Positions 2,866 through 10,237 of a stretch of DNA of 10,237 bases are shown in pieces. The notes beneath the pieces were generated by a model, which was not told where the DNA came from, did no database searches, and worked only from the letters and a program-made list of their open reading frames with translations. The stretch's first letter is position 1. Every line of letters begins with the position of its first letter. The stretch spans positions 1,516 through 11,752 of the forward strand of contig JAOZUU010000036.1 in assembly GCA_029938515.1 (NCBI GenBank). Reading direction: 5' to 3'. A program made the position numbers and the translations under genes. The DNA comes from Desulfobacterales bacterium (GTDB lineage Bacteria > Desulfobacterota > Desulfobacteria > Desulfobacterales > QNYZ01).

Positions 2866-3252
2866 CTATTCGAGATTTTCTTTCACAATTTCCATCAGCT
2901 TATCCAGATCGATCGGTTTTGGAATAAAATCGTCAGCCAAGGTTGTTTTTCCACCCAAATGGGTGTATTCGGTCGATGTTACGGCATCTCCCACTGCGGT
3001 GAGAAGCACCACGATAATATCTTTGTATTGATCGTCCTTTTTCAGCTCATCACACAGCTCATACCCATTTTTTCTTGGCATCATGACGTCCAGGATAATC
3101 AGTTCCGGTTGCTCTTCCTTGATTTTTTCCCAGGCCTCTACGCCGTCGTAGGCTTTGGCTACCCGGAAATTATGGCTCTCCACTTTCATGGCAATGGATT
3201 CAACCAGATCGGGGTCATCGTCTACGACTAAGATGAGTTGTTTATCGCTCAT
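2866..3252 (-). CDS. Single-domain response regulator (CheY-like)
   Basis: This 128-residue protein is a stand-alone receiver domain without an output domain. The acidic pocket D11-D12-D13, the phosphoacceptor D55 (in LIILDVMMP), the switch threonine T85 and the conserved lysine K112 (in FIPKP) are all present, so it should be phosphorylatable. The T85-K112 spacing is 27 residues, about five longer than in E. coli CheY, giving an extended alpha-4 region with YTHLGGKTTLADDFIPKP. The ATG start at 3250-3252 is supported by an excellent ribosome binding site, AAGGAGGAGG at 3260-3269, 7 nt from the start. The gene follows metF after 80 nt of very AT-rich sequence. It could act by protein-protein interaction in a phosphorelay with the kinase at 7-1518 or modulate the adjacent C1 enzymes; neither can be decided from sequence. 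Confidence 0.92.
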   Translation of the reverse strand: MSDKQLILVVDDDPDLVESIAMKVESHNFRVAKAYDGVEAWEKIKEEQPELIILDVMMPRKNGYELCDELKKDDQYKDIIVVLLTAVGDAVTSTEYTHLGGKTTLADDFIPKPIDLDKLMEIVKENLE

Positions 3253-3332: not shown

Positions 3333-4262
3333 TTAACTGAATTCTTTCGGCCTTGGAAGAAGCCCGGCTCTTTCAACAATCTCGGGGACCTTCTGTTCCC
3401 ACTCAATGGCCATGATATGGAATCCTTTTACACCCTCAACTTCTTTCAACCGCTCGATCGCTTCGATACTAATCTTAATTCCTTCATCTGCTTGTTTTTC
3501 TTTGGGGACACCGGCCATGCGCTTGATAAGCTCATCCGGCACATCCATTCCAGGCACCCTTTTTTTCATATATCTGGCCATCCCTACGGTTTTCATGGGC
3601 GTAATCCCGGCCATAATATTGACCTTTTCATGCAGCCCTCTGTCGCGGACGCCATCCATCCATTTCTCAAACTTATCCAGGTTGTAAATGCATTGTGTTT
3701 GAATAAAATCAGTCCCCGCCTTGATTTTTTTAGCCAGGCGAGCCACTCGAAGCTCAAATGGGTCCGCAAACGGGTTGGCTGCTGCACCGATATACATTTT
3801 GGGCGGATTCAAAATCTCGTCACCACCCTGGAATCTGCCCTTATCCCGCATGTCTCTGACCATCTGAACGAACTGAACGGAATCGATGTCATGCACATTG
3901 GCCGCCATGGGGTGGTCGCCAAAGTGGGGATGATCACCCGATAAACAAAGCATGATGTCGATGCCGTGTGCATAGGCACCCAGAATGTCCGCCTGCATGG
4001 CCAGCCGGTTACGGTCTCTGGTCACCATCTGAAGAATGGGGTCCATTCCCAATTGTTTGATAAATACACAGGCGGCAAAACTGGACATCCGGACCATGGC
4101 GGTCTGGTTATCCGTGACATTGACCGCATCCACATATCCTTGAAGCATCTTGGCTTTTTCTATAATCTTTTCCGCCAAGGCACCCCGAGGAGGTCCACAT
4201 TCGGAGGTCACCGCCAACTCGCCTGAAGCAAAAACTTTTTCCAGCACACTTTCGGTCTTCAT
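3333..4262 (-). CDS. metF: Methylenetetrahydrofolate reductase, catalytic subunit MetF
   Basis: MetF interconverts 5,10-methylene-THF and 5-methyl-THF in the methyl branch of the Wood-Ljungdahl pathway, using FAD in a TIM-barrel fold. The 309-residue protein has the usual length of the bacterial catalytic domain. The expected catalytic glutamate appears as E21 in TSECGPPRG, and the folate-binding aspartate as D110 in LCLSGDHP. The segments TDNQTAMVRMS, TRDRNRLAMQADILGA and FIQTQCIYN also fit the family. Its ATG overlaps the metV stop by 4 nt (ATGA), so MetV and MetF are translationally coupled and likely form the MetVF pair known from Moorella. In such organisms electrons pass through MetV and HdrA/MvhD rather than directly from NADH (family knowledge; inferred here). 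No frameshift or missing key residue is seen. Confidence 0.95.
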   Translation of the reverse strand: MKTESVLEKVFASGELAVTSECGPPRGALAEKIIEKAKMLQGYVDAVNVTDNQTAMVRMSSFAACVFIKQLGMDPILQMVTRDRNRLAMQADILGAYAHGIDIMLCLSGDHPHFGDHPMAANVHDIDSVQFVQMVRDMRDKGRFQGGDEILNPPKMYIGAAANPFADPFELRVARLAKKIKAGTDFIQTQCIYNLDKFEKWMDGVRDRGLHEKVNIMAGITPMKTVGMARYMKKRVPGMDVPDELIKRMAGVPKEKQADEGIKISIEAIERLKEVEGVKGFHIMAIEWEQKVPEIVERAGLLPRPKEFS

Positions 4263-4927
4263 TTTACCAGATCCTCTCTTATTATTTTACGGGGTCCGCC
4301 ACCACGACCTGTCCGCCAGTCTTTTGCCGCGATATTGTCTTCGTATCGATCTTCCAGCCCCAAGGCTTTCAGCCGATCCCAAATAAGCTGCCAGGCACAA
4401 TCAATATCCGGATCCACCTCGCACTTGCCGTTTGTGGATCCACCGCAAGGGCCGTTCAACAACTGCTTGGCGCATCGCGCAATGGGACAGATCCCACCGG
4501 TCAATGCCAAAACGCATTCTCCGCAGCCCTGGCATCTTTCAACCCAAACACCTTGACGTTCCGAAGCACCCATGAACGTTGTATTCAAAGCCGGAAAAAC
4601 AGGCTTGGATTTAAACCGGCCGGCAATTTCCTGAACGCCACAACCGCAAGCCATTGACATAACCGCTTCTGCCTGATCAATGTGCGTGACCAGTTCTTCT
4701 ACATATTCAGGATCGCATTGCCTCTCGAGGGTAATTTCTTTAACATCAAGGGTTTTTCCTTCTTTCATAAATGCCATCTGTAATGCGGAAGATAAAATTC
4801 CGACCTCTTTTCTCCCCCCGGCCGAGCATACCGTGACACATTCATTACAACCGACGAGAAGAATGCGGTGGTACGGCCTCAGACATTCAATGAGTTCTTC
4901 CATTGGTTTACGTTCAGCAGTGATCAT
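4259..4927 (-). CDS. metV: MetV, cysteine-rich partner of methylenetetrahydrofolate reductase
   Basis: MetV (MTHFR C-terminal family) is the metal-binding and iron-sulfur partner that links MetF to electron carriers. The 222-residue protein has its cysteines in the typical places: C27, C30 and C34 in LLVGCNECVTVC; C71; C94 and C96 in ACGCG; C132, C135 and C138 in RCQGCGEC; then C147, C152, C161, C169 and C177 around ICPIARC, NGPCGGS and CEVDPDIDC. These support both a zinc-type site and at least one Fe-S cluster. The N-terminal half forms a Rossmann-like fold. The ATG at 4925-4927 follows AAAGGAGAG about 9 nt upstream. It lies 46 nt after mvhD and overlaps metF by 4 nt. This order places it physically between the Hdr-type electron-transfer genes and MetF, matching its presumed role as the electrical connector. 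Confidence 0.94.
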   Translation of the reverse strand: MITAERKPMEELIECLRPYHRILLVGCNECVTVCSAGGRKEVGILSSALQMAFMKEGKTLDVKEITLERQCDPEYVEELVTHIDQAEAVMSMACGCGVQEIAGRFKSKPVFPALNTTFMGASERQGVWVERCQGCGECVLALTGGICPIARCAKQLLNGPCGGSTNGKCEVDPDIDCAWQLIWDRLKALGLEDRYEDNIAAKDWRTGRGGGPRKIIREDLVK

Positions 4928-4973: not shown

Positions 4974-5408
4974 TTACGCAGCCGTTTTTGCCTCATTTAC
5001 GGATTTAACGGGATTGGGCCCCAATTTACGGATTTTTTCCGTTATTTCTGTGGCCGTTTGAGCAAAACGTTCCCCCATTCCCGCCGACATTAAAACCATC
5101 TCAACCCGTTCTCCGCCAATGCCGATTTCATCAAGTAACTTCTTTATATAGGCCACCCGTTTGGCAGCGCCTATATTCCCGTTTTTAAAGTGGCAGTCGC
5201 CGTCCAGGCATCCGGCCACGTAAACACCGTCAGCCCCCATTTCCAGGGCTTTCATAATGTGAATCGCGTCGACCTTTCCAGAGCAGGGGACCTTTATAAT
5301 TTTAACATTGGGGGGATAACAAAGCCGTTTACTACCCGCCATATCCGCCGCTGTATAGGCGCAATAATGGCAGCAAAATGCGACAATAACCGGTTCAAAA
5401 TTTTCCAT
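4974..5408 (-). CDS. mvhD: MvhD-like iron-sulfur electron-transfer subunit
   Basis: MvhD is a small [2Fe-2S] protein that passes electrons between a donor enzyme and the HdrA flavoprotein. The 144-residue product is full length for the family and shows its cysteine pattern: FCCHYCAY (residues 11-18), C30, PCSGKVD (42-48) and GCLDGDCHF (66-74). The ATG start overlaps the last base of the hdrA stop (TAATG), which indicates translational coupling and a direct HdrA-MvhD interaction; in some organisms the two are fused. In methanogens MvhD connects to a [NiFe] hydrogenase, but no hydrogenase gene is visible here. Its electron partner is therefore more likely MetVF or an enzyme encoded elsewhere, such as a formate dehydrogenase or hydrogenase (inference). 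Confidence 0.94.
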   Translation of the reverse strand: MENFEPVIVAFCCHYCAYTAADMAGSKRLCYPPNVKIIKVPCSGKVDAIHIMKALEMGADGVYVAGCLDGDCHFKNGNIGAAKRVAYIKKLLDEIGIGGERVEMVLMSAGMGERFAQTATEITEKIRKLGPNPVKSVNEAKTAA

Positions 5409-8400
5409 TAGTTTACCCTTTCCAAAAGTCCGGCCAATTTTGCCAGAATCTGGTCGTCTTCATATTGCATGAGCTGAATGGCCTTAGCCGGGCATTCAGC
5501 GGCACATATACCGCATCCATGGCACTGGGCCGGATCGATTTCAGAATATCCATCAGCATTGATAAATGGGATGTTAAAGGGACAGGCCCTCACACAGATC
5601 AAACAGGCCGTACACCGCTCCTTATCTACCCGTGCAATAGCGGCGCCAAGATTAAGCGTATCTTTAGCCAGCAGGCAATGGGCCCTGCCCGCCGCCGCCT
5701 GGGCTTGGGCGATGCACTCACGGAGTGTCTTGGGCGCATGGGCCGTGCCGGCTACAAAAAATCCCGCCACCGGCAAGTCTATCGGCCTGAGTTTGATATG
5801 ATCTTCGAGAAAATAGTTGTCACTGGTTTTCGGGATTCGAAATATCCTGCCCAGATCTTCGGTAGATTCTTCATCGGCGATTAACCCCGTACTCAAGCAA
5901 AGATAGTCCGCATATACCGATACCTTTCGGTTTAGAATCGGATCATTAAATGTGACCTGAAGTTGTTCGTCCGCAGCCTGCACCTCGGGGGGGGTATCCG
6001 CCTCATAGCGGACGAAGATAACGCCTTTTTCACGGGCTTTTTTATAATAATCTTCCTGGAATCCATACGTCCGCATATCCCGATAAAGAACAAAAATTCG
6101 GACCGTGGGATTGAGTTCCAATATTCTGAGCGCATTTTTTATGGCAGATTGACAACAAATGCGTGAACAATTGGGGTTTTCCGGGCATCGGGACCCCACA
6201 CACTGGATCATGATAACGTTGGAAAGATCCTTGATCTTATCCGGTTGATCCTCAAGCATTGCATCCATATCGAGCTGGGTCATCACATTGTTATGTTCTC
6301 CCAGAAGATATTCTTTGGGTTGGTTGGGAAGCGCCCCGGTCGCCAAAATGGTAACGCCGTGCTCGATCTGCCGGTAAAACATCTGCGGTGCTATCTGGAA
6401 CCCGGTTTTAAACATGCCCGGCATACCCGTATGATCCACAATAAACGCATTGGTCAGGATCTCGATCCGATCATTTTGGGTGGTTCTTTCAATCAGATCC
6501 TTCATGTAGGCCTGCACATCATCCCCTTCAAGTGTCTTGTGGATATTTTTTGCAACACCCCCCAATTCTCCGGAACGTTCTACGAGATACACCTTAACGC
6601 CCATGTCGGCCATATTCAAAGCAGCGTTCATTCCCGTTACACCACCGCCAACCACAAGAACATCCTTTTTCATGGGGAAAACATTGTCCGTAAGCGGATG
6701 AGACAGCGCCACACTGGTCACGGCCATACGAATCAGCTCCCGGGCTTTATCCGATGCATCTTCAGGCCGATCAAAGTGAACCCAAGTATCCTGATCCCGT
6801 ATATTAGCGATTTCAACCAGATATTTATTGAGGCCGGCTCTGCGGAGGGTGTCCTGAAATTTGGTTTCGTGCGTTCGGGGAGAACAGCCGCCGATGACCA
6901 CCCGGTTCAACTCTTTTTCCCTGATAACGTCTTGAATATGTTTCATGGTCTCCCGGCTGCATCCATACCCGACCATTTCAGATCGTTTAACATCGGCAAG
7001 TGTGCCGGCATAATCCGCCAGGTCCTTTGCATTAATCACATCACCGATATTTAACCCGCAGTCACATACAAAAACACCGATTCGGAGAGGCTCCTGGCTG
7101 ACATCACGTTCAGGGGGAAATTCATCGATACTTTCGATCGGTTCGGAAAGAATACTGATATCCTTGGAAGCACAAAATGCCGCCGCACTGGCCTGGACCA
7201 TGGTTTCAGGAATGTCCTTGGGACTTTCGAACATGCCGCAGGCATAAATGCCGGGCTTGGAAGTGGACACCGGACTGAAACCACCTGTTTTTGCAAAATG
7301 GTGTTCATTCAACTCGATCCCCAGTTTCCCGGCCAGTTCCTGCACATCCTCGGAAATCTTGAAGCCGGTGGACAGTACCACCATATCAAAATCTTCCGTC
7401 AGGTTGCTGCCACCGTCATCCGGAGAATAGATAATGGACAGGCGCCCTGTTTCCGAATCATGAAAAACACTATGAGGGCGACTTCTAACAAGACGAATAC
7501 CGTAATCGTTTTTTGCCCGATTTAAATATAATTCATAGTCCTTCCCGAATGTTCGCATGTCCATATAAAAAATGGTGGTCTCGATGGAGTCTTGAAAGCG
7601 CTCCTTGGTGACGATGGTCTCTTTCAAAGCAAACATACAACAGACACTGGAACAATATGATGCAGCGCCCTCGTGGATACTGCGTGATCCCACACACTGA
7701 ATCCAAGCTATTTTCTTGGGTTGTTTTCCATCTGATGGACGGACGAGCTCTCCCTGGGTGGGGCCGGATGCAGACAATATGCGTTCATATTCCAGGCTGG
7801 TAACCACATCGGGGTTGGCCGCATAACCCAAACTATCCAATTTGTCAGGGGCAAACACCTCGGCTCCGGGTGCCAGGACAATGGCACCGGCTTCTACTTC
7901 CCGAACCTTTTGGGTATCTTCGGGAATGATGGCACCCGCCTTGCAGACCTGAACCAGCGCATCGACATCGTTACATTTTTCCATGTCAATTGAAAAGGCA
8001 TGGGGGATCGCCTGGGGATACCGCATACAGGTCGGCGCCCGGTGATCGAGACCTGGCGTAAAACGAACACATTCCGGAAATTTATTAAAACAATCCCCGC
8101 AGGCCGTACATTTTTCCAGGTCGATGTATCGTGGCGCGGTAATTAATTTTAACTTAAAATCGCCCGCCTCCCCTTCGGCTTCGGCCACCTGGGTCATTGC
8201 CAAAAGCTCGATATGCAATTGACGGCCCGCTTCGGACAGATCGGGAGACAGTGTGCACAAGTCGCAATTGTTGGTGGGAAAAGTACGGTCCAGTTGAGTC
8301 ATCAGTCCGCCGATGGAATATGACTTGTCTATCAATACAACATCTCGATTCGATTCAGCCAGATCCATGGCGGCACGAATACCACCGACCCCCCCGCCAA

Positions 8401-8446
8401 TTACGAGCACCGTATTATTCTGTTTGAGCGTATCTTGAGCTTGCAT
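5408..8446 (-). CDS. hdrA: HdrA-HdrA fusion, flavin/iron-sulfur heterodisulfide-reductase-like subunit A
   Basis: HdrA is the FAD protein at the bifurcation site of Hdr complexes. This ~1012-residue protein contains two HdrA-type modules. In numbering from the alternative GTG, module 1 (about 14-430) has the FAD motif VLVIGGGVGG, the HdrA signature NNCDLCTLSP, and an inserted ferredoxin-like segment (C115, C118, C121, C128, C142, C160, C170) whose clusters look degenerate. Module 2 starts with an HdrA N-terminal domain (FVCDCGLNIGD, CSPRTHE at 523-529), then a second FAD motif, VLVVGGGVTG (~598), and IQCVGSR. It ends in an intact ferredoxin with two [4Fe-4S] motifs, CTACLICVRACP and CHGCGICAAECP (947-988). 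I chose ATG at 8444-8446 because AAGGG sits 5 nt upstream. The in-frame GTG six bases earlier directly abuts that site. It overlaps mvhD by 1 nt. The family is certain; the bifurcating partners are inferred. Confidence 0.95.
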   Translation of the reverse strand: MQAQDTLKQNNTVLVIGGGVGGIRAAMDLAESNRDVVLIDKSYSIGGLMTQLDRTFPTNNCDLCTLSPDLSEAGRQLHIELLAMTQVAEAEGEAGDFKLKLITAPRYIDLEKCTACGDCFNKFPECVRFTPGLDHRAPTCMRYPQAIPHAFSIDMEKCNDVDALVQVCKAGAIIPEDTQKVREVEAGAIVLAPGAEVFAPDKLDSLGYAANPDVVTSLEYERILSASGPTQGELVRPSDGKQPKKIAWIQCVGSRSIHEGAASYCSSVCCMFALKETIVTKERFQDSIETTIFYMDMRTFGKDYELYLNRAKNDYGIRLVRSRPHSVFHDSETGRLSIIYSPDDGGSNLTEDFDMVVLSTGFKISEDVQELAGKLGIELNEHHFAKTGGFSPVSTSKPGIYACGMFESPKDIPETMVQASAAAFCASKDISILSEPIESIDEFPPERDVSQEPLRIGVFVCDCGLNIGDVINAKDLADYAGTLADVKRSEMVGYGCSRETMKHIQDVIREKELNRVVIGGCSPRTHETKFQDTLRRAGLNKYLVEIANIRDQDTWVHFDRPEDASDKARELIRMAVTSVALSHPLTDNVFPMKKDVLVVGGGVTGMNAALNMADMGVKVYLVERSGELGGVAKNIHKTLEGDDVQAYMKDLIERTTQNDRIEILTNAFIVDHTGMPGMFKTGFQIAPQMFYRQIEHGVTILATGALPNQPKEYLLGEHNNVMTQLDMDAMLEDQPDKIKDLSNVIMIQCVGSRCPENPNCSRICCQSAIKNALRILELNPTVRIFVLYRDMRTYGFQEDYYKKAREKGVIFVRYEADTPPEVQAADEQLQVTFNDPILNRKVSVYADYLCLSTGLIADEESTEDLGRIFRIPKTSDNYFLEDHIKLRPIDLPVAGFFVAGTAHAPKTLRECIAQAQAAAGRAHCLLAKDTLNLGAAIARVDKERCTACLICVRACPFNIPFINADGYSEIDPAQCHGCGICAAECPAKAIQLMQYEDDQILAKLAGLLERVN

Positions 8447-8535
8447 TTGCACCCTTATATTATTTGTTGTCCGTCTGAAATTATTTTTACTTCTGAATCC
8501 TTTAGCGATCTAACCCATAAAATGAAAAATAACCG

Positions 8536-9408
8536 TTACATACCTGCATAATCCAGTATTTCGGGGAGCCGGTATTCCCACCCGAGGGTAATAATATGTA
8601 CACCCTGGACAATATTTCGCAGCCCTGCAACGGTTTCTCCGGCAATCCGGAGACATTCCATTTCCGTATCCGATGCTTTCCGAATACGCTTGATCAAATC
8701 GTCTGAAATATGGGCGCCCGGTTCATAGTTGGCGAGATATCGGGCGATTCCCACTGATTTGATGAGAAAAACCGTAGAAAGAATCGGTACGCCCAACTCT
8801 TTGAATGAGTTCATATTCGACGAAAAGTGATCTAAATCAAAAACAGGTGGCGTAATAACAAACTGGGCACCCGCTTCAATTTTTTTTCTTGCAAGGGACA
8901 ATTCCTTTTCAAGGGCCGCATCATCGCCGGAAGGAGCAATGGTACATCCTACGGTAAACGCGGGTTTTCCGGTAAGGTCGAAGCCGGCCATGTCCTTTCC
9001 CTCTTGCAAAGATTGAATAGCCCCCAGGAGTTCCACTTCATCCAAATCATTTACCGGTTTTGAATCTTGATGATCCCCTTTAGCCATTTCTTCACTGTGG
9101 ACAACCACAAGATTCTGAATACCCAGCACATGGGCGGCGAGGATATCGCCTTGAAGTGCCATCCGGTTTCGATCCCGGCAATAGACATGAATAATTGCTT
9201 CGACCCCCTGCTGTTGCATGAGAACGCCACCGGCCAGAGCACTCATTCGCATGATTCCATTGTCCATATCCGGAACAATGACCGCATCAACACGCCCTTT
9301 AATCCGGCGCGCGTTGGTAACCAGCTCAGATATATCCACCCCTTTGGGCGTATTCATCTCGGCCAGTACGACAAACTCACCTGATATTAATCGTTTCTGA
9401 AAACTCAT
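8536..9408 (-). CDS. Divergent MetF paralogue (methylenetetrahydrofolate reductase family)
   Basis: This 290-residue protein has the MetF TIM-barrel fold and aligns along its whole length with the canonical MetF at 3333-4262. Shared segments include RGR/GYVDAV, MRMSALAGG, CRDRNRMALQGDILAAHVLG, the central KIEAGAQFVITPPVFDLDHF, LKSVGIARY-like IKSVGIARYL, and a C-terminal GVHIITLGWE. E17 (LAEMNTPKG) matches the catalytic glutamate. However, the conserved S-G-D of MetF is H-S-E-E here (residues 104-107), so the folate-binding aspartate is replaced by glutamate. It may act on a modified or different pterin, work as a slower reductase, or be a structural subunit of the complex (inference). The ATG at 9406-9408 follows AAGGAAG at a good distance. 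The gene lies 26 nt after the HdrD-like gene and about 90 nt before hdrA; nothing clear is seen in that gap. Confidence 0.9.
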   Translation of the reverse strand: MSFQKRLISGEFVVLAEMNTPKGVDISELVTNARRIKGRVDAVIVPDMDNGIMRMSALAGGVLMQQQGVEAIIHVYCRDRNRMALQGDILAAHVLGIQNLVVVHSEEMAKGDHQDSKPVNDLDEVELLGAIQSLQEGKDMAGFDLTGKPAFTVGCTIAPSGDDAALEKELSLARKKIEAGAQFVITPPVFDLDHFSSNMNSFKELGVPILSTVFLIKSVGIARYLANYEPGAHISDDLIKRIRKASDTEMECLRIAGETVAGLRNIVQGVHIITLGWEYRLPEILDYAGM

Positions 9409-9434: not shown

Positions 9435-10237
9435 TTACATCGCCGTTTCAGGGTGAAAAACCAGTACATCCTTGAGGTCATCGCCCAGGTATTCGCGTTC
9501 GTTCGGCCCCAGTATCCCCAAAGAAAGACAGATAAGCGTCCACAGGTGGACAACGGGGTAGCCGCCGCCGAAATGCTCGCTCAGTTCATGAATCTGGGCA
9601 TGGCAGTTGTGACACCCGGCGATACAATAGTCGGCGCCCGTTGCCTTGATCTGCTGGTCTTTCAATTCCCCGTATTTTAACCGTTCTTCCTTAAAACCCG
9701 ACTGCAGGAATCCGCCGCCGCCGCCACAGCAATAATTGTTGGACCGGTTGGGTTGCATATCGATGAAATTCTCTTCACCCACCACGGACCTGACGACAAG
9801 ACGCAGATCTTCCGCGATGGGATCCCCATACGATTTCCGTACAATTTGGCAGGGATCCTGGACGGTAAACTTTATTTTCAGGTCTTTGTTCCAGTCGGAA
9901 TTGACCTTCAGCTTTCCCTCCCGGATCCATTTAGCGTAATATTCATAAATGTTTTTGACGACAAAATCATGTTCGATATTGAATTTTTTCAGTCCTGCCA
10001 GGACTGAGAAGGTAACATGCCCTCATTCGGTATTTAGGTATGTTTTACACCCGAGTTCATTCGCTTTTCCGGCCGTGGTACGGGTAACCTGTTCCCAGGC
10101 GTCGTCATCCGCCAAAAACATGCAGTAATTTTCTCCCCCCCATCCCTTGCTGCCGTAGGTCCAATCGGCACCGGCCAGGTGCAGGATTTTCCATAGCGGG
10201 ACCAACTCGTCCGGCTCGGTGACCGGTTCCCTTGAGT
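9435..10237 (-). CDS. HdrD/HdrB-like CCG-domain Fe-S protein with predicted selenocysteine (5' end off window)
   Basis: This is the C-terminal part (266 visible codons) of a heterodisulfide-reductase-like protein. Such CCG-domain proteins hold unusual [4Fe-4S] clusters that reduce disulfides or a similar acceptor. The visible second CCG domain is complete: DPC (C129), NNYCCGGGGG (C169-C170) and CIAGCHNC (C204, C208, C211). The visible first domain has DWTYGSKGW, ENYC (C38) and then TE-U-GH, where U is TGA at 10023-10025. DsrK/HmeD-type relatives have E-C-G-H at this place, so the TGA replaces a cysteine. The frame stays homologous on both sides and a SECIS-like hairpin follows, so I read the codon as selenocysteine rather than a stop. 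The frame continues past 10237, so start and N-terminus are not seen. The protein probably replaces separate HdrB and HdrC in the complex with the downstream MetF, HdrA and MvhD proteins. An unbroken alternative is a nonsense mutation, which I consider less likely. Confidence 0.85.
9986..10010 (-). promoter_or_regulatory. Bacterial SECIS-like hairpin downstream of the TGA
   Basis: On the mRNA, CAGTCC (10006-10001) pairs perfectly with GGACTG (9995-9990) around the loop UGGCA (10000-9996). A U-A pair extends the stem, followed by one mismatch and two more U-A pairs out to 10010/9986. The loop begins 22 nt after the TGA and has G as its second base, as expected for bacterial SECIS elements recognised by SelB. 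The hairpin lies wholly within coding sequence. SelB specificity varies between species, so this supports selenocysteine without proving it. Confidence 0.72.
10023..10025 (-). other. Predicted selenocysteine codon (in-frame TGA)
   Basis: TGA is in frame within the HdrD-like gene, visible codon 71. It is preceded by codons for KTYLNTE and followed by GHVTFSVLAGL, reconstituting the E-[C]-G-H motif of CCG-domain proteins. Treating it as a stop would leave 195 downstream codons with conserved cysteines untranslated. Decoding would need selA, selB, selC and selD elsewhere in the genome. Confidence 0.83.

Follow-up and report, generated by a model that had tools for sequence, protein, structure and literature searches.

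The minus strand of a 10,237-nucleotide stretch from a Desulfobacterales bacterium related to sulfate reducers (assembly GCA_029938515.1, contig JAOZUU010000036.1, positions 1,516 to 11,752; the whole of this stretch is hereafter the window) carries at 9435..10237 a gene for an HdrD-like Fe-S protein of the HdrC-HdrB fusion type (Pfam CCG, 46.2 bits), and this gene is interrupted by a TGA at 10023..10025. The question raised by this locus is whether the codon ends the protein or is translated, and, if translated, as which amino acid. Comparison with related sequences gave strong support for reading the TGA as selenocysteine (Sec), and the gene very probably encodes a soluble HdrD-like Fe-S protein in which UGA is translated as Sec through the bacterial route of SelB and a selenocysteine insertion sequence (SECIS).

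A single TGA breaks the minus-strand frame at 9435-10235, which is otherwise open and ends in TAA; the codon sits within ...LNTE(U)GHVTF..., giving the motif E-U-G-H. The first-pass annotation had described one TGA in an otherwise continuous frame of a CCG-domain protein, and this was borne out, as both sides of the TGA matched one protein frame in relatives across 266/266 residues. Elsewhere in the window TGA serves as an ordinary stop, terminating metV. The contig (C367) is 11752 bases long and its end coincides with the last base of the window (11752), and because the frame runs off this end the N-terminal part of the gene is missing; the portion present comprises a degenerate first CCG domain and a complete second one. 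The same genome holds three HdrD-like genes with a TGA (C367, C426 and C354).

The aligned codon was compared across a set of loci that includes the best 80 of 532 and is weighted to close relatives; in it the window is counted twice and some genomes likewise, as named and unnamed copies. TGA was found in all 104 matches of at least 80% identity and in 10/10 matches of 65-80% identity, and two matches of 30-50% identity had TGC and TGT. After removal of identical contexts, TGA stood at this position in 95/95 matches of at least 80% identity. Such recurrence is far above chance. More distant twins of the gene (L130-L144) had TGC or TGT in 15/15 cases, 14 of them having been picked for a match without a stop and the other, L139, having a TAA counted. 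Among Cys homologues, Cys occupied the column in 120/120 listed proteins (the best 120 of 2443 matches), in a database biased towards Cys forms, truncation at the TGA being likely for the Sec forms. The window TGA falls on this invariant Cys, and the alignment with homologues that the first-pass annotation had proposed as a check returned Cys or TGA only, no other residue being seen at the column in any sequence examined.

A distant subfamily (L145:4937-5695, 36% identity) also has a TGA at the aligned column. Its listed relatives (120 of 1432 matches) are only 150-199 amino acids long in 99/120 cases, a length that would follow if gene prediction placed the start beyond the TGA, and these short fragments suggest that such proteins are cut at the TGA in databases. 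In another locus (L146:4671-5450), an in-frame TAG lies upstream of the TGA in the same gene, and may be either an error or pyrrolysine.

Just after the TGA, where a bacterial SECIS is expected, the predicted fold contains a SECIS-like hairpin (9989..10007, minus strand) with an 8-bp stem and a 3-nt loop, GGC. The distance from TGA to loop is 23 nt, and the core stem starts 16 nt past the TGA. The core, taken as six pairs with G-T allowed, was compared across 125 contexts free of identical ones, comprising 108 TGA and 17 Cys-codon contexts. All six pairs were present in 98/108 TGA contexts, the remaining 10 having five, and in 0/17 Cys contexts, which had five (3 contexts), four (3), three (7) or two (4). 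The hairpin was defined on the window's own sequence, so that these counts favour window-like contexts, and the Cys group served as the control; at a matched identity of 65-80%, six pairs were found in 12/12 TGA contexts versus 0/13 Cys contexts. At 80% identity or above, the stem codons were nearly frozen (GTC in 95/95, CTG in 87/87 and GGA in 94/95), and synonymous variation, higher on both flanks, was almost gone across the stem. Two-sided pair changes were rare, with A-T replacing G-C in 2 contexts and C-G replacing T-A in 1.

Translation as Sec would require the corresponding machinery, for which the first-pass annotation had proposed a search, and here its expectation held only in part: selA was found (612.2 bits, at a contig end), and searches of the incomplete genome, a draft of 71.7% completeness in 560 contigs, yielded no selB, selC or selD. 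Several observations weigh against the Sec reading. In this 71.7%-complete draft, no match exceeded the cut-off for selB (best 71.4 bits, cut-off 242), selD (75.3, cut-off 125) or tRNA-Sec (32.4, cut-off 47), the weak tRNA match being a tRNA-Ser; in one relative that carries the TGA gene (G007), no match to selB or tRNA-Sec reaches the cut-off; and five of the six core pairs occur in 3/17 Cys contexts. The missing genes count weakly, because the genome is incomplete and selA itself lies at a contig end. Over-cut-off matches among the 58 genomes searched, this one included, were obtained for selB in 50 and for tRNA-Sec in 48, the latter count with stricter filters. The 41 relatives with a TGA gene of at least 65% identity had selB in 37 cases, tRNA-Sec in 33, both in 30 and at least one in 40; in one genome (G048), the tRNA listed over cut-off is a variant adjoining selB*, the second SelB described below. 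The claim that Sec replaces the cysteine of the E-C-G-H motif is supported by the Cys/TGA-only column, the conserved hairpin, selA and the Sec machinery of nearly all TGA-bearing relatives. Cultured relatives with the TGA gene include Desulfonema magnum (L033) and Desulfobacter vibrioformis (L085).

The role of the Sec was considered from the domain make-up, for which a full-length relative (L020, 439 residues) was used. In this protein an HdrC-type 4Fe-4S dicluster part precedes an HdrB-like part, in which Pfam identifies one CCG domain, and the HdrC-HdrB fold was recovered both on it and in the alignment. The second CCG domain is complete. In the first, C211 and C/U244 (L020 numbering) are invariant in 54/54 rows, residue 174 is Ser in 54/54 and residue 247 is Cys in 0/54. 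Assignment as a catalytic heterodisulfide reductase (HdrB/HdrD) was ruled out by a test for two CCG domains, the first being incomplete. The best NCBIfam matches of L020 were DsrK, HmcF and TmcB, yet their scores (122.9, 173.1 and 173.6 bits) were far under the equivalog cut-offs of 400, 750 and 735, and these assignments were likewise rejected.

From this make-up, the HdrC part would be expected to bind two cubane clusters and the second CCG domain one of the non-cubane type. Ligands appear to have been lost from the first CCG domain, C211 and C/U244 being the invariant positions left, and the Sec, next to the non-cubane cluster, is probably one half of a Cys-Sec redox pair or part of a small metal site. 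An invariant His two residues past the Sec most likely caps that cluster, as may be compared with His583 of EtfD, and electrons would pass between HdrA/MvhD on one side and, on the other, either the module of methylene-tetrahydrofolate (methylene-THF) reductase or a partner of thiol/disulfide type. Sec at this site might also, as the first-pass annotation supposed, alter the redox chemistry of the whole complex. The Sec likely occupies the place of an EtfD cluster ligand within the degenerate domain, which allows for the possibility, a somewhat doubtful one, that it is itself a true ligand of an Fe-S cluster, linear or non-cubane, held by the first CCG domain and not half of a Cys-Sec pair. 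By spacing, the site matches Cys581 of EtfD, a ligand of the linear [3Fe-4S] cluster, and C236 could serve as a further ligand, but the next expected ligand positions are the invariant Ser174 and residue 247, which is never Cys. Against the Cys-Sec pair and its placement stand the retention of C236 in 50/54 rows, so that the statement of only two cysteines is limited to the strictly invariant ones; the correspondence with Cys581/His583 of EtfD, which is based on spacing and overall fold; and the alignment covering Cys637 of EtfD, which is weak (i-Evalue 0.2) and was made with a distant relative. In HdrB, Cys78 is a cluster ligand.

A second explanation concerns the amino acid inserted. A second SelB (selB*), distinct from the ordinary one, was found in 20/194 genomes of the order, with the line drawn by eye at a gap in E-values (2.1e-103 or better, next 2.4e-96). 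A tRNA with a UCA anticodon lies within approximately 0.5 kb of selB* in 18/20 (exceptions L173 and L182). Two reviews, in the text available, describe selC*, selB* and CysRS* from Desulfobacterales and propose that under selenium shortage Cys enters at the UGA codons for Sec, one of them stating Cys at such codons. In organisms with selB*/selC*, the same UGA might then be read partly or conditionally as Cys, for example under selenium scarcity. This reading is improbable: no selB* match was found in the window's own genome, an incomplete draft, and close relatives with the ordinary SelB as the only one observed, such as G051/L101, keep the hairpin unbroken. Sec remains the preferred reading of the codon. 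Least of all can an assembly error (TGA for TGC or TGT) or a decayed gene be entertained, since despite the fragmentation of the draft both are excluded by the recurrence of TGA in all 104 close matches and by the frozen hairpin, which also settles the check for such a mistake proposed in the first-pass annotation.

The neighbourhoods of selB* were searched with a chosen set of query proteins over approximately 10 kb on each side where the contig allowed; the linkage counts refer to selB* alone, and not to ordinary SelB. A Cys twin of the HdrD-like gene was found near selB* in 9/20 genomes (L130, L133, L166, L169, L170, L172, L176, L178 and L179), at distances from 20 bases to 8.8 kb. The codon at the column is TGC or TGT in 9/9 of these twins, and an opal tRNA lies beside selB* in all nine genomes; the L178 twin contains an in-frame TAA elsewhere in the gene. 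In G053, the ordinary SelB lies 10.6 kb from a TGA copy. A gene of the 2-hydroxyglutaryl-CoA-dehydratase-D type occurred near selB* in 7/20 (L164, L165, L166, L170, L174, L175 and L182), accompanied in 6 of the 7 by a BcrAD-type gene and in 2 of the 7 by a Cys twin. The L163 stretch holds a molybdopterin oxidoreductase and that of L177 hdrA-mvhD-metV-metF; the stretches of L171, L173, L180 and L181, the last two being short contigs, held none of the queried genes save a weak 30% BcrAD match in L171.

The linkage of Cys twin and selB* suggests a module for selenium scarcity and fits the proposed insertion of Cys for Sec under that condition. Tentatively, Desulfobacterales may possess a two-tier electron-transfer system, in which a Cys-Sec selenoprotein is matched by a selenium-free Cys twin belonging to the selB*/selC* module, with UGA recoded to Cys when selenium is scarce. 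The twin, often with HdrA and MvhD, would share one module with the second SelB and the opal tRNA. If this were true, the module for selenium-poor conditions would both supply a Cys enzyme and cause UGA to be read as Cys in the selenoproteins that remain, relatives of the window gene included, and the linkage offers a testable setting for the proposed recoding.

Two further arrangements were observed. In L167 (9719-11620), a tRNA-Cys (anticodon GCA, scoring above the tRNA-Sec cut-off) is followed by a CCG Fe-S protein gene whose aligned codon is TGC (Cys) and then by the start of a SelB-like gene. L130 contains two copies of a 461-amino-acid open reading frame (ORF; 858-2243 and 6639-8024) adjoining hdrA and selB*, whose ORFs share the same terminal peptide; the 461-amino-acid product is presumably group II intron reverse transcriptase-like.

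Within the window, the HdrD-like gene heads a minus-strand cluster of order hdrD-metF-hdrA-mvhD-metV-metF. This comprises a first copy of a MetF-like methylene-THF reductase (8536..9408, Pfam MTHFR), an HdrA-like flavoprotein (5408..8452) and MvhD/FlpD (4974..5408), both without an in-frame TGA, MetV-like protein (4259..4927; Pfam DUF5981, MTHFR C-terminal type) with its genuine TGA stop, and a second MetF-like copy (3333..4262, Pfam MTHFR). The same order was present in 6 of the best 80 loci (L027, L028, L046, L056, L073 and L081), and in 16 mvhD lies on one side of the hdrD-like gene and metV on the other. Telling against a general tie to MetF, 34 of these loci had no hdrA, mvhD, metF or metV match within 1.5 kb, so that this link is one of several settings and not universal. 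An HdrD-like Sec protein can nonetheless belong to a methylene-THF reductase/HdrA cluster, and the electron donor of this C1 step is still debated according to the literature available in part. Five of the nine FlpD copies in the genome hold an in-frame TGA; that of the cluster holds none. Downstream of the cluster are two ORFs without a Pfam match (1714-2211, 165 amino acids; 2230-2763, 177 amino acids), adjoining a histidine-kinase-like ORF (7-1518, judged by eye) and a response regulator (2866-3252).

The first-pass annotation had doubted its own novelty, with reason: the family has been listed as a selenoprotein since 2006, and the window gene is a well-supported further member. The survey of that year, in the part available, lists an Fe-S oxidoreductase (GlpC) family of 5 members; for Syntrophobacter fumaroxidans and Desulfotalea psychrophila it gives the operon glpC-hdrA-frhD-frhG-frhA. 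Excerpts of later papers name HdrD4 as a selenocysteine protein of Desulfobacterium autotrophicum HRM2 (2009 genome paper, PMC2702500), include an Fe-S oxidoreductase and a heterodisulfide reductase among the Sec proteins encoded in a deltaproteobacterial genome of marine origin (2021), and print the Fe-S oxidoreductase family with the motif UGH (2026 review, PMC13188914), which recurs as NTEUGH in the window protein. The large comparative set supports the view that HdrD-like proteins with a predicted Sec in the UGH motif are common among relatives of this organism.

By these partial published descriptions, the window protein resembles the GlpC family (PTHR43551, including WP_174406253.1) in the UGH motif, the Fe-S oxidoreductase type, the occurrence in Deltaproteobacteria and the hdrA and frhD/mvhD-type neighbours; the published operons continue with frhG and frhA, whereas the window partners are metF, hdrA, mvhD, metV and metF. 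HdrD4 of D. autotrophicum HRM2, again by description only, is likewise soluble, HdrD-like and a selenoprotein, and comes from a sulfate reducer of the complete-oxidising type. With HdrB/HdrC of methanogens (5odc, 8rvu and 7bkb), the window family shares the HdrC-type ferredoxin part and the HdrB fold, and its second CCG domain can be aligned with theirs at the CCG and CxxC; unlike these proteins, it has a degenerate first CCG domain and Sec for Cys. EtfD of Mycobacterium smegmatis (9ojn) differs in being membrane-bound, in its heme and in having four ligands for its linear [3Fe-4S] cluster.
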